Source: Candidatus Chromulinivoraceae bacterium (GTDB taxonomy: Bacteria > Patescibacteriota > Saccharimonadia > Saccharimonadales > Saccharimonadaceae). Taken from it: 47,979 bases of DNA. Positions 1-13,591 of the stretch are shown piece after piece. The stretch lies in the NCBI GenBank assembly GCA_035478595.1, contig DATIJL010000013.1, positions 1-47,979 on the forward strand, read 5' to 3'. Under the pieces are notes generated by a model. That model did not search any database. It was not told the origin of the DNA and saw nothing but the letters and a program-made list of their open reading frames with translations. Within the stretch, counting starts at the first letter, position 1; each line of letters begins with the position of its first letter. Position numbers and translations under genes: made by a program.

Positions 1-82
1 ATTGGTAGAATAGGCCATGGCAGGCCTCCTTTCTGTATTTATTTAGTCGTAAACACAGTATACGGAGTGCCTGCTTTTTTGG

Positions 83-114
83 GATAGATGGCTAACGCCA
101 TCTATCTTCTTTTT
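83..114 (+). terminator. Rho-independent terminator
   Basis: A perfect 10-bp stem (83-92 with 97-106) closed by a TAAC loop is followed by TTCTTTTT. It would end a plus-strand transcript entering from the left of the window. Nothing else is recognised in bases 1-82. Confidence 0.8.
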
Positions 115-164
115 ATGTTGCAAAGGTGGTGAGTTAGTACGTCGCTATTGATAAAAATATAAAG

Positions 165-178
165 ATATTTTAAAATAT
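165..178. promoter_or_regulatory. AT palindrome before the NDT/RHH trio
   Basis: ATATTTTAAAATAT is a perfect 14-bp palindrome ending 6 nt before the first gene's ATG and overlapping a TATACT hexamer at 176-181. Because the downstream genes carry RHH DNA-binding domains, it is a candidate autoregulatory operator. AT-rich DNA makes such palindromes easy to find by chance, so this is weak. Confidence 0.3.
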
Positions 179-184
179 ACTTAC

Positions 185-766
185 ATGATTATCCAGATTA
201 TCGGTAACGCAAGCAATCTTACGGGAGACCTTCCCTTCTACCATACTATTCTTGAGGTTATTCATGATAGTGGTGCGGTCATTGCGCGCGATTGGATTAG
301 TGCTGCTCAAAACCGCATCGATAAAAATATCATCAGAGATGACACAAAAGTCGAATGGGATGATGTTCATAAAGAGAATAGCGAAGCTATTACACGCTCT
401 GATGTTGTCATTATCGAAGCCACCAACTACGGTTTTCAGGAGGGATTCTACACTGCACAAGCCTTGCAACAAAAAAAGCCCATACTTCTCCTCACACGCG
501 AGAATATTCGAGGCAAGCTGGTATACGGTATTAAGCATAAACTTTTAACCACCGCACACTACGACAATAGCGATGATCTCAAAAAGATCGTAGCTAAATT
601 CGTAAAAGCAAACACTATCAATACAAAGGATCTTCGGTTTAACTTTTTTATTGATCGACAAATCTATGGGTATCTACGTGAAGTTTCCTACGAAACTGGC
701 AAAAATAAGTCAGAAATTATTCGTGAACTGCTAGAACAGGAAATCGATAAGCAGGAACCGGTGTAG
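185..766 (+). CDS. NDT-like Rossmann domain fused to ribbon-helix-helix, copy 1
   Basis: A 193-aa protein in two parts. Residues 1 to about 135 resemble the nucleoside 2-deoxyribosyltransferase / DUF4406-like fold: a first beta strand (IIQIIGNAS), a strand ending SDVVIIEAT, a G-x-x-x-G segment (GFQEGF) and KKPILLLT. Residues about 150-190 form a CopG/Arc-type ribbon-helix-helix (DLRFNFFIDRQIY, then ETGKNKSEIIRELLE). This suggests a DNA-binding regulator sensing a nucleotide-like ligand, or an enzyme with a DNA tether; neither is proven. It is the first of three translationally coupled paralogues, its TAG sharing a G with the next GTG start. No clear Shine-Dalgarno is seen. I do not recognise a named family with this architecture. 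Confidence 0.85.
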   Translation: MIIQIIGNASNLTGDLPFYHTILEVIHDSGAVIARDWISAAQNRIDKNIIRDDTKVEWDDVHKENSEAITRSDVVIIEATNYGFQEGFYTAQALQQKKPILLLTRENIRGKLVYGIKHKLLTTAHYDNSDDLKKIVAKFVKANTINTKDLRFNFFIDRQIYGYLREVSYETGKNKSEIIRELLEQEIDKQEPV

Positions 767-1332
767 TGATCGTTCATATTGCCGGTAGTCTTCGAGATTC
801 AGAAGTTGACACCACCTATCTTCAGCAAATCATCGAGACGGTCCACGATCATGGTGCCGTCCTTGCCCATAGCTGGCTAGAAGCCGCCATTGCCCGGCAA
901 AAGGAATCTATCGTTATTCCCGACTGGACGCCTTACGTCGAGGCAAATCTAGACGCTGTCATTCGAGCCGACGTCGTAATTGTAGAACTTACTCACTATT
1001 CGTTTTCCCAAGGATTTCTTATTGCCGCAGCTTTTGAACATAAAAAACCGGTGCTCGCAATATCTCGACACTCCACACACGGCGATACAGTTAGCGGCAT
1101 TACCAATCCTCTTTTTACTTATAAACGATACTCCGACGGCACTGACTTGAAACAAACCGTCGATGAGTTCTTACGCAAGAATACCGTTTACACCCAAGAT
1201 CTTCGGTTTAATATGTTTCTTACTCGTCAAATTTTCAAATATCTCGAGGAAGTCTCGCACGAAACTGGTAAAAGTCGCTCTGAGATAATCCGCGCGATCA
1301 TTAAACGAAAGGCAGAGGGTAATCGTGGTTAA
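766..1332 (+). CDS. NDT-like Rossmann domain fused to ribbon-helix-helix, copy 2
   Basis: Second tandem paralogue, 188 aa, starting at a GTG that overlaps the preceding stop by one base (TAGTG), so translation is probably coupled. Same layout as copy 1: N-terminal strand IVHIAGSLRDSE, central ADVVIVELTHYSFSQGF, KKPVLAIS, then an RHH segment starting DLRFNMFLTRQIF and containing ETGKSRSEIIRAII. The Glu in the G-x-x-x-G segment of copy 1 (GFQEGF) is Gln here, so if copy 1 used that Glu catalytically this copy would not. Basic C-terminus (KRKAEGNRG). Function unknown; probably a paralogous partner able to hetero-oligomerise through the RHH. Confidence 0.85.
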   Translation: MIVHIAGSLRDSEVDTTYLQQIIETVHDHGAVLAHSWLEAAIARQKESIVIPDWTPYVEANLDAVIRADVVIVELTHYSFSQGFLIAAAFEHKKPVLAISRHSTHGDTVSGITNPLFTYKRYSDGTDLKQTVDEFLRKNTVYTQDLRFNMFLTRQIFKYLEEVSHETGKSRSEIIRAIIKRKAEGNRG

Positions 1333-1909
1333 CTTTACGACACAAGTACATGTCACCGGAAGTGCTCGTAAATTTGAAGACGACGCAATCTATCTGCAGG
1401 CGATTGTACAAGCGGTATACGACAATCATGCGATAGTCTTTAGGAACTGGCTTGAAGCAGCCGCAAGCCGCACTAAGAATAAGATCCATGATGATGACGT
1501 AGACTGGGAGAGCATCCTCAACGATAACCTAGATGCGATCGTAAAATCCGACCTTGTTGTTGTAGAGGCTACCCAAGCTCGTTCTAGTCAAGGCCTGCAA
1601 GCATACATAGCGGCCCAACATAAAAAACCAACGCTTATTGTTACCCGGTCACAAATTAAAGATCGATTTATTTCAGGTGTAGAGAATAAGTTTATAACCG
1701 TCCACCAGTACTCTAATACCGACGAACTGCAGACTATTGTCGCAAAATTCATCAAACAAAATAGCATCCCTGAAAAGGATCTTCGGTTTAACATGATCTT
1801 AGACCGAAGAATTTATAAATACCTTCGCGATACCTCTTACGAAACTGGCAAAAATAAGTCAGAAATTATCCGTGAACTTTTGGAGCGAGACATTAGTCGT
1901 CGTAAATAA
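1325..1909 (+). CDS. NDT-like Rossmann domain fused to ribbon-helix-helix, copy 3
   Basis: Third tandem paralogue, 194 aa, with a GTG start inside the last codons of copy 2 (8-nt overlap). Domain order is the same: VHVTGSARKFED at the N-terminus, SDLVVVEATQARSSQGL in the middle, KKPTLIVT, then an RHH starting DLRFNMILDRRIY with ETGKNKSEIIRELLE. Its RHH coding DNA is almost identical to that of copy 1 (32 nt unbroken at 689-720 and 1838-1869), although the N-terminal domains have diverged strongly. This points to conservation of the DNA-binding part or to gene conversion. It ends the coupled trio. Confidence 0.85.
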   Translation: MVNFTTQVHVTGSARKFEDDAIYLQAIVQAVYDNHAIVFRNWLEAAASRTKNKIHDDDVDWESILNDNLDAIVKSDLVVVEATQARSSQGLQAYIAAQHKKPTLIVTRSQIKDRFISGVENKFITVHQYSNTDELQTIVAKFIKQNSIPEKDLRFNMILDRRIYKYLRDTSYETGKNKSEIIRELLERDISRRK

Positions 1910-2065: not shown

Positions 2066-2090
2066 TATGTATGGACTATAATCATACATA
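2066..2090 (+). promoter_or_regulatory. Inverted repeat bracketing a -10 box
   Basis: TATGTATG (2066-2073) and CATACATA (2083-2090) form a perfect 8-bp inverted repeat whose 9-nt spacer contains TATAAT (2077-2082). A regulator bound here would block RNA polymerase at the fourth gene of the cluster (start 2112, preceded by GTGGAG near 2099). The RHH proteins encoded just upstream are the obvious candidates. No convincing -35 is seen. Confidence 0.55.
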
Positions 2091-2111: not shown

Positions 2112-2681
2112 ATGAACATAGCCACGCAAATCAGCGGCAACATTCGACCCGGTAATAAGGCGCTTTTTGCGCTCAAAACCATGCTTGCTCATATAGGCAT
2201 TAAAGTGACTCAATCCGTCCAGGATGAGTCACTTTTTCATAAGACCAATATGAAGGTTGCGTGGCAGCACTACGAAAAGGAGGTGGACTTTTACAAATCC
2301 ATAGAACACTCGGCATTCCATATCATATACAATGACGGCCCGATCAGTAATGAGATCGGCCTTCAAGTTCTTTATGCAATGGTAAAAGATCGACCTATCC
2401 TTATGACAGGCCTGCCTTTATTCGCAGATGACCTCAACCTACTCATTCGAGACACGCTCACAAAACATGTACGTGAGTTTCACTCCATCAACCTTCCAGA
2501 GCTTGAACTTACCGAGCTAAGCAGACTACTTACAAAACTCAAACCTGTAAGCTATAGTCTATCGAAAAGCGAGAAGATTCTTATCAATGCTCGTATCAAG
2601 GGCTTCTTTCGAGATTTGGTCACCGAAACAGTAGTTCAAACAAGTTCCAGTGGGATTACGACACCCGCTCAAAAGGCCTAG
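2112..2681 (+). CDS. Divergent relative of the NDT-like proteins, lacking RHH
   Basis: A 189-aa protein of unknown function. The N-terminus (IATQISGNIRPGNKALFALKTMLAHIGIKV) follows the same strand-helix plan as the three preceding proteins. A central segment (AFHIIYNDGPISNEIGLQVLYAMVKDRPILM, here quoted in parts) corresponds to their sensor strand, G-x-x-x-G and KKPILL regions. The C-terminus has no recognisable ribbon-helix-helix. It has its own promoter and a likely operator 20 nt upstream, and it overlaps the convergent Nudix gene by 4 nt. It may be the effector of a regulator-effector set; that is inference from position and fold resemblance only. Confidence 0.75.
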   Translation: MNIATQISGNIRPGNKALFALKTMLAHIGIKVTQSVQDESLFHKTNMKVAWQHYEKEVDFYKSIEHSAFHIIYNDGPISNEIGLQVLYAMVKDRPILMTGLPLFADDLNLLIRDTLTKHVREFHSINLPELELTELSRLLTKLKPVSYSLSKSEKILINARIKGFFRDLVTETVVQTSSSGITTPAQKA

Positions 2682-3184
2682 ATTATTCGTTTGAAATCCG
2701 GGTGTGCTTGTAAAAAATCGTGTACCTCTGCAAAATCATCAAATGCATGATGATACTCCGCAACTCTTTCAAGCGGCACAAATGCTCGTTCGAAAATCTC
2801 TAGCTGTGGAACATATTCTTTTACATTTACTACTCGCGAAACAAAAAGAGGCTGATATGCTTCGAGTGGATACCCGGCGTTCTCCGGTGACTCAAATAGC
2901 TTTTTAATTCGCCATCCGCCGACGTGGATAAGATCACCTAGCTCAACTGCAGCCTCTTCCATTGCTTCGCGTCGCACACACTCCTCGGCCGTTTCACCCT
3001 CTTCGCGGTGTCCGCCTAGTAGCCCCCAACCACGTTCTGGACGTGACATAACGAGTGCACTCTCATAAATTGCAGCAACCATACACGCCGTTATAAGTTC
3101 AACAGCCGGCATATCGCTGCCAGCTTCGAATTGAGCCAACGTTGAACTATCACTTCCCCAATATATTTTCTTAAATTGTTGCAC
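2678..3184 (-). CDS. Nudix hydrolase
   Basis: 168 aa with a near-complete Nudix box: G58, E64, R72-E73, E76-E77 follow the G-x5-E-x7-R-E-U-x-E-E spacing, with Ala79 where Gly is usual. The enzyme would hydrolyse a nucleoside diphosphate linked to another moiety using divalent metal bound by the box glutamates; the substrate cannot be told. The start is GTG, 1 nt past the ruvA stop, with AGGGG upstream, so it is probably co-transcribed and coupled with ruvA. The C-terminal half (residues 110-160) is not a known extra domain. Confidence 0.88.
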   Translation of the reverse strand: MQQFKKIYWGSDSSTLAQFEAGSDMPAVELITACMVAAIYESALVMSRPERGWGLLGGHREEGETAEECVRREAMEEAAVELGDLIHVGGWRIKKLFESPENAGYPLEAYQPLFVSRVVNVKEYVPQLEIFERAFVPLERVAEYHHAFDDFAEVHDFLQAHPDFKRII

Positions 3185-3185
3185 T

Positions 3186-3761
3186 CTAACCCCTCAATGC
3201 TTGCGTTACGCGGTCGGCAGTAGAAAGATCCATAGGCACGCTTTCGAGTGCGCGGGTAGCATCGTTAAGGTTATAGCCGAGTGCCATAAGCGCTTCGAGC
3301 GCTTCGTCGGTATGTAGAAGAGTTTGTGATATGCCAACTGCGGACACATCAGTCCTCAGCGCTAACCCAACCTTATCGGTCAGATCTACGACTACACGTT
3401 CGGCGATTCGCTTACCAACACCGCTTGCTTTGGTTATGTATGTGCTGTCACCGTTCGCGATTGCATTACGCACCTGCTCACTATCTCCAAGACTCAAAAT
3501 CGAAAGCGCAGCCTTAGGACCAACGCCCTGCACGGTAATCAGCATCTCAAACAATTTTTTAGCAGCTAGACTGGTAAAACCAAACAATTCCTGCGACTGT
3601 TCGCGAATGTGATGATAGGTATAAAACTTCATCGGTTCGTTTAGTAGCGCTTGTTCATAGTCACCCACCGCAACACTTACTTCATATCCCACGCCATGAA
3701 CATCTACAATAACAGAGGAACCAAACTTTTCAGCAACAACTCCAGAAACATGTGCAATCAT
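3186..3761 (-). CDS. ruvA: Holliday junction branch migration protein RuvA
   Basis: 191 aa, normal RuvA length. It begins with the OB-fold domain (MIAHVSGVVAEKF, then VGYEV), followed by the helix-hairpin-helix region (LITVQGVGPKAALSILSL and ASGVGKRIAERVVVDL), and ends with the small RuvB-binding three-helix domain (EALEALMALGYNLNDATRAL). RuvA tetramers bind four-way junctions and load the RuvB motor. ruvC lies about 4.4 kb away on the same strand and ruvB is not in the window. It probably leads a two-gene unit with the Nudix gene. Confidence 0.97.
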   Translation of the reverse strand: MIAHVSGVVAEKFGSSVIVDVHGVGYEVSVAVGDYEQALLNEPMKFYTYHHIREQSQELFGFTSLAAKKLFEMLITVQGVGPKAALSILSLGDSEQVRNAIANGDSTYITKASGVGKRIAERVVVDLTDKVGLALRTDVSAVGISQTLLHTDEALEALMALGYNLNDATRALESVPMDLSTADRVTQALRG

Positions 3762-13342: not shown

Positions 13343-13591
13343 TATTTAGACAAAACGCGCCTACTCATTTTCAAGTATTTGTTGCTGAAACGGAGAGATC
13401 TCGGCTTCTTCAGAAGCCTCCTCTAAGTGCAGCTCACAGTAGAGCTGACTTAGCGCTAACGCGCCTTGCAGTTTTTTGGGCCGCTCTTCTACCGTGGATT
13501 GATCACAATTTTCATGTATACATATAGACATAACATAACCATGATACTACACATACGATATGCGTAGACTGTGATCTGAGTCACAAAACGT
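13343..13591. other. Intergenic stretch without a supported gene
   Basis: A 63-codon plus-strand frame exists (13336-13527), but it overlaps the tRNA promoter, has no start signal and shows no protein-like pattern. I see no RNA gene or clear repeat here. Confidence 0.5.

Follow-up and report, generated by a model that had tools for sequence, protein, structure and literature searches.

Three adjacent genes at positions 185–1909 of the window (the whole stretch of 47,979 nucleotides that was analysed, which is the entire contig C13 of a 1.14-Mb genome, G000) encode fusion proteins that are likely to act as one-component regulators, in which an apparently dead DNPH1-type domain would sense a nucleotide ligand and a C-terminal ribbon-helix-helix (RHH) domain would bind DNA at TATGTRTA-type sites. 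The fusions probably constitute an undescribed family of gene switches sensing a nucleotide-like metabolite. No description of a DNPH1/NDT-RHH fusion was found in Pfam, NCBIfam, PADLOC or the open-licence literature, in agreement with an earlier sequence-only reading of this DNA, which knew of no named system with such an architecture.

The three paralogues lie on the + strand. Paralogue 1 (185..766, ATG start, 193 residues) comprises a DNPH1-type domain at residues 1–145 and an RHH domain at residues 149–190. Paralogue 2 (766..1332, GTG start, 188 residues) overlaps with paralogue 1 by 1 nt through the stop-start sequence TAGTG, and paralogue 3 (1325..1909, GTG start, 194 residues) overlaps with paralogue 2 by 8 nt (1325–1332). 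The open reading frame coordinates match exactly the row of three paralogues with overlaps of 1 and 8 nt described previously. Protein comparison reveals 41–43% identity of paralogues 2 and 3 to paralogue 1, the RHH strand DLRFN is invariant across the three proteins, and their architecture is kept in sister genomes of the class.

Individual window proteins fall below the Pfam cut-off for PF05014. A family profile of 17 sequences matched rat Rcl/DNPH1 in the PDB at E 7.5e-12 and human DNPH1 at about 1e-9, while the profile of 65 sequences matched DNPH1 at E 7.8e-21 across residues 3–141 and also a true NDT, 2a0k, at E 3.7e-6. The AF2 model of paralogue 1 (mean pLDDT 74, pTM 0.66) led to a similar result in Foldseek, where DNPH1/Rcl accounted for 50 of the 50 PDB matches listed, the best with an E of 2.1e-6 and a TM on target of 0.78, up to 0.80. 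Thus, the N-terminal domain is of the DNPH1 type within the NDT superfamily, and the structure prediction and structure search suggested with the sequence-only reading have recovered a DNPH1/NDT-type fold.

The catalytic triad of human DNPH1 is formed by Tyr-24, Asp-80 and Glu-104, with the phosphate coordinated by Ser-98 (PMC10603095). Substitution of Glu-104 by Gln abolishes activity and retains substrate binding, the E104Q protein still binding 5-hydroxymethyl-dUMP (PMC10603095, PMC12751057), and human DNPH1 D80N was crystallised with the same nucleotide. In the window the positions of Tyr-24, Asp-80 and Glu-104 are occupied by Gln/Asn/Tyr in paralogue 1, His/Asn/Leu in paralogue 2 and His/Asn/Gln in paralogue 3. 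Two independent alignments agree that Asp-80 is kept in 0/65 surveyed fusions, and both place Gln at the Glu-104 position in 33 of the 65 fusions, Glu in 16 and other residues in 16. The same searches recovered stand-alone DNPH1-like enzymes of the phylum that retain the Asp (10/10) and the Glu (10/10). Judged from these alignments, the enzyme domain of the fusions looks dead. The Ser-98 column displays Ser or Asn in 48/65 fusions, and the loss of the triad with retention of the fold and of a Ser/Asn phosphate position would be the pattern expected of a sensor. Within the trio this position carries Gly, Ser and Arg, respectively, and because Ser-98 is altered in two of the three proteins the ligand of the trio may differ or be lost. 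The sensor role previously proposed for the first domain is strengthened by the loss of the catalytic triad, while the same loss argues against nucleotide scavenging as an enzyme. An NAD-derived signal, also proposed from the sequence, is not indicated, as the closest relatives act on (deoxy)nucleoside 5'-monophosphates, and no specific evidence pointed to ADP-ribose or NAD sensing.

The RHH segment of paralogue 1 (residues 149–190) begins DLRFNFFIDRQIYGYLREVSYETGKNKSEIIRELL. Matches of the window proteins to Pfam RHH_1/RHH_3 are below cut-off, and RHH_1 is matched in 7/65 family members at E up to 0.01. A profile built from 29 fusion C-termini, where the strand-helix-helix pattern of the RHH (CopG/Arc) family is present, has its clearest PDB matches among RHH chains, with TTHA0139 first at 5e-4; CopG, NikR, VapB26 and a CopG-family regulator follow more weakly, mixed with a few weak unrelated chains. 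The Arc-like strand R-F-N is almost fixed in the class group, with R in 17/18, F in 18/18 and N in 18/18 members, and is common elsewhere too. In the AF2 model of paralogue 1 this strand is unformed (pLDDT <50 at residues 147–156), the structure predictions being of monomers only. The family profiles, the fold search and the RHH profile together bear out the earlier assignment of an NDT-like domain and a C-terminal RHH to each trio protein.

Fusions of this kind recur throughout Patescibacteria, where as many as one in ten of the genomes sampled carry them. Full-length fusions were found in about 20/393 genomes of the class. The profile matched in 14–16 of about 394 genomes of the family and order samples and, at E up to 1e-15, in 39/380 genomes sampled across the phylum; a few stand-alone enzymes are included in these profile counts. 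Fusions are scattered over many families, with one or two copies per genome as a rule, and a second case of an adjacent pair is found in G752 (L128). The record CP025011 (L008) carries the same fusion sequence as G209 and was not counted as additional support, and a strict-pattern scan of genome contigs returned one Saccharibacteria record. The survey of Saccharibacteria genomes proposed earlier for the fusion and its neighbours thus found the same architecture recurring, scattered across the phylum. Searches of phages, plasmids and viral contigs returned no fusion relatives. In the tree the class fusions of the window type form one clade (99/84) and the stand-alone enzymes another (96/92). 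The three window genes group in a single clade (100/99), and thus the trio is a local tandem duplication or expansion; since most relatives are single-copy, three subunits are unneeded for function in general. A divergent fusion subfamily with the C-terminus RTSFMSTRKID...GVSKGELIR is observed in L097, L109 and L110, and in L097 and L109 two genes with no assigned function, of about 357 and 362 residues, adjoin it.

Downstream of the trio lies a companion gene, P0004 (2112..2681, + strand), which encodes a related NDT/DNPH1-like fold lacking the RHH. The companion has no match in Pfam, and BLASTP of paralogue 1 (P0001) against P0004 returned nothing. An iterated HMM search from the companion family reaches the fusions, and hhalign of companion against the fusion profile gives an E of 8e-4 with a low probability of 24%. 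The AF2 model of the companion (pLDDT 83) ends in one long helix, with no RHH, and its best PDB matches in Foldseek are BcmB and DNPH1, with an E of about 7e-4. From these profiles and models the companion appears to be a relative of the fusions without the RHH. In seven genomes (L096, L098, with two, L101, L102, L104, L111 and the window) members of the companion family lie one or two genes away from a fusion.

An inverted repeat, TATGTATG-GACTATAAT-CATACATA (2066..2090), straddles the −10 box of the companion with a variant of the enriched upstream word TATGTATA and is a candidate operator. Its exact arms have an expected count of 0.00 in window shuffles. The pattern TATGTRTN{5,16}AYACATA has one match in the 1.14-Mb genome, at 2066–2090, and the reversed control pattern also has one, while the opposite arrangement of paired sites occurs nowhere in the genome. 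A word screen set 50 regions upstream of fusions or companions against 449 such regions belonging to other genes at the same loci, and TATACATA/TATGTATA was the most enriched of 3932 8-mers (9/50 versus 3/449, p 9e-8). TATGTRTA was found at 17 sites, compared with a mean of 2.9 and a maximum of 9 in 1000 dinucleotide shuffles, and in 12/50 regions versus 5/212 low-GC controls (p 2e-6). It had first stood out upstream of companions and class fusions; the non-class fusions were a held-out set, in which TATGTRTA-type motifs occur in 4/29 regions versus 7/339 (p 0.007). Taken alone, the regions upstream of class fusions offered little beyond the −35 box as a single exact word; the word emerged once the companion and phylum loci were combined and compared with controls from neighbouring genes. 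The candidate sites differ in spacing and orientation among loci, and TATGTRTA is absent upstream of the trio, whose leader is cut by an insertion sequence. We infer that this upstream word is a candidate operator of the fusion family. Elsewhere in the window, upstream of a possible small − strand ORF, lies a palindrome with TATGYGTA arms, TACACATACGATATGCGTA (13548–13566), whose pattern matches nowhere else in the genome (control 0); the RHH family may have a second target here.

In the mechanism we favour, the N-terminal domain would descend from a DNPH1-type (deoxy)nucleoside-5'-monophosphate N-glycosidase that lost catalysis and would now serve as a ligand-binding sensor and dimer module, while the C-terminal RHH would bind DNA as a dimer. 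Ligand in the dead active site would act allosterically by altering the spacing or orientation of RHH pairs, leading to release from, or stronger binding to, TATGTRTA-type sites over promoters. Any repression would fall chiefly on the promoter of the RHH-less companion (2112) and, in many genomes, on the promoter of the fusion itself. The ligand would most likely be a nucleotide or a piece of one; it may be a non-canonical dNMP. Hetero-oligomers of the trio are possible. An extended version of this model, which we regard as rather unlikely, holds that forms of DNPH1 trapping their substrate (Glu-104 to Gln, Asp-80 to Asn) were turned into nucleotide-pool sensors across the phylum, that the trio forms mixed oligomers of differing ligand affinity, and that the RHH-less relative is an anti-repressor or ligand buffer with a promoter controlled by the trio.

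The organisation of the locus suggests how the trio came to its present position. The first 141 bases of the window (1..141, − strand) match the end of contig C19 exactly and, as the terminal inverted repeats and target duplications of 6 bp indicate, are the right end of an insertion sequence. Its transposase gene (− strand) has a probable start at about base 18 (MAYSTN..., with AGGAGG ahead of the start) and runs off the contig. The insertion sequence ends some 43 bp upstream of the first trio start codon, and a likely trio promoter, TTGATA-17-TAAAAT (148..176, + strand), is located just inside its junction, with 10/12 matches in a consensus scan that overall found no more sites than in shuffles. 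Beyond the companion lie a NUDIX hydrolase (2681..3184, − strand; Pfam PF00293, 3e-11) and ruvA (3189..3761, − strand), in synteny with L093, L101, L103, L104 and contig C7 of the same genome; at the fusion loci we take the flanking genes to be RuvA and RuvB, names assigned by us from sequence. The order in L104 is RuvA, companion, methyltransferase, fusion and RuvB, with L101 and L103 being similar. Contig C7 carries RuvB, a fusion, a methyltransferase and a broken fusion copy, and C13 the trio, companion, NUDIX and RuvA. C7 and C13 both terminate in one insertion sequence, with terminal repeats CGTA..AACTCA..ACCTTTGCAACAT, and TCGCTA is the 6-bp target duplication common to their flanks; for the other copy (C1/C19) it is GGTGAC. 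Because of these common ends, the TCGCTA duplication and the synteny, the trio and the broken copy probably once formed a single tandem array in the ruvA-ruvB interval that was split by the insertion sequence, the joining being deduced from target duplications and synteny. Two copies of this element break the assembly, at the ends of C1, C7, C13 and C19, where target duplications indicate the joins. The broken copy (C7 57099–57510; L092 11100–11515) lacks the N-terminus, and its frame is broken between the DNPH1-like and RHH parts; GYQ is still found at its catalytic position. The broken copy, the insertion sequence and the RHH-less companion had all escaped the sequence-only reading. This fourth copy, the insertion sequence beside it and the divergence of the trio at the Glu-104 and Ser-98 positions would fit drifting, decaying duplicates of which only the ruvB-side copy works. 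This explanation has a low probability, as the three frames, at 41–43% identity, are long, intact and tightly coupled, with DLRFN invariant.

NUDIX genes lie directly beside seven fusions (7/121 genes at distance one versus 6/684 further off, p 0.001), and an eighth NUDIX neighbour, in L118, escapes the motif pattern. ThyA-like genes adjoin fusions in L112 and L113, and RdgB-, Maf- and MazG-like neighbours, recognised by eye in the sequences, are leads only. Together these genes point to nucleotide-pool metabolism, and apart from NUDIX the neighbours are varied. In L112 (5613–6809) the ThyA-like domain beside the fusion is fused to a SAM methyltransferase (PF00303, 1.7e-14; Methyltransf_11, 5.7e-21). 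CYTH-domain genes adjoin fusions in two unrelated genomes (L105 6992–7567 and L143 4991–5620). A glyoxalase/VOC-type gene is divergent from the GHE-type fusions of L130, L137, L139 and L140 (Pfam test in L137), and in these four fusions the Glu nucleophile is kept and Asp-80 is not. The Glu retained in 16/65 fusions, the DNPH1 fold and the nucleotide-sanitising NUDIX and RdgB-like neighbours could be taken to mean that the fusion is still a nucleotide N-glycosidase of altered active-site chemistry, tethered to DNA through the RHH and cleansing or modifying nucleotides near the chromosome. Such activity is very unlikely, as Asp-80, and hence the full triad, is missing in all 65 fusions, Tyr, Leu and Gln occupy the nucleophile position of the trio, and the same phylum has stand-alone paralogues that look catalytic.

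Gene context supported neither a toxin-antitoxin nor a defence reading. The weak RelB-type match of the RHH, the small size of the genes and the adjacency of the companion in seven genomes would suit an autoregulating antitoxin whose Rossmann domain neutralises its partner, with the companion (2112) as the toxin. The chance of this is slim, since the companion is a fusion relative of the same fold, most fusions have no companion beside them, the companion may be convergent, divergent or co-directional with no fixed operon, and no toxin family is matched in Pfam, NCBIfam or PADLOC. Anti-phage defence was one of the roles considered in the sequence-only reading. On infection an NDT/SLOG/TIR-like domain, of a clade common in such systems (TIR-DrHyd-SLOG, PMC9503650), would sense a nucleotide signal or make one, and defence genes would be switched on through the RHH. 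This is very unlikely given 0 PADLOC matches for the four window proteins, the empty phage, plasmid and viral searches, no defence genes seen by eye beside about 60 loci, housekeeping and nucleotide-metabolism neighbours, a lost active site and a ruvA-ruvB position conserved in the family.

Patescibacteria are reduced cells, many of which live on other bacteria, and to our knowledge only a small number of their regulators are understood. With its readable ligand pocket and candidate operator, such a widespread family opens nucleotide sensing in this phylum to direct testing. If the one-component regulator model is true, the fusions would clearly illustrate how an enzyme can turn into a sensor via the substitutions that structural biologists use for trapping substrate, and DNPH1 would join the enzyme folds reused for transcription control. 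The N-terminal domain displays the fold and sequence of DNPH1/Rcl (2'-deoxynucleoside 5'-phosphate N-hydrolase 1) and of bacterial MilB and BcmB, with which it also has in common the helix bearing GY[E/Q]. In contrast to these enzymes, the fusions carry an RHH and, as Asp-80 is missing in 65/65, are devoid of the full Tyr/Asp/Glu triad, and those of the class group have no GSIRGG loop. By fold, the domain would fall in the DrHyd (deoxyribohydrolase) superfamily of PMC9503650, the text of which does not mention RHH; unlike the TIR-DrHyd-SLOG conflict proteins, the fusions show no evidence of NADase or cyclase and have no conflict-gene neighbours. The C-terminal 40 residues resemble the RHH regulators CopG, Arc and NikR. 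In NikR the RHH is N-terminal and the nickel domain ACT-like; the fusions similarly join an RHH to a separate ligand domain, although in a different layout, with the RHH at the C-terminus and a Rossmann nucleotide domain. In the Nudix-related regulators NrtR and BtAraR, ligand sensing by a Nudix domain that has lost its catalytic residues shifts a winged helix (PMC4666351, PMC6800001). Thus, NrtR/BtAraR combine Nudix with winged helix and the fusions a DNPH1-type domain with RHH and, with no homology between them, both would follow the same logic of an enzyme domain that lost catalysis and serves, next to a DNA-binding domain, as the ligand sensor.
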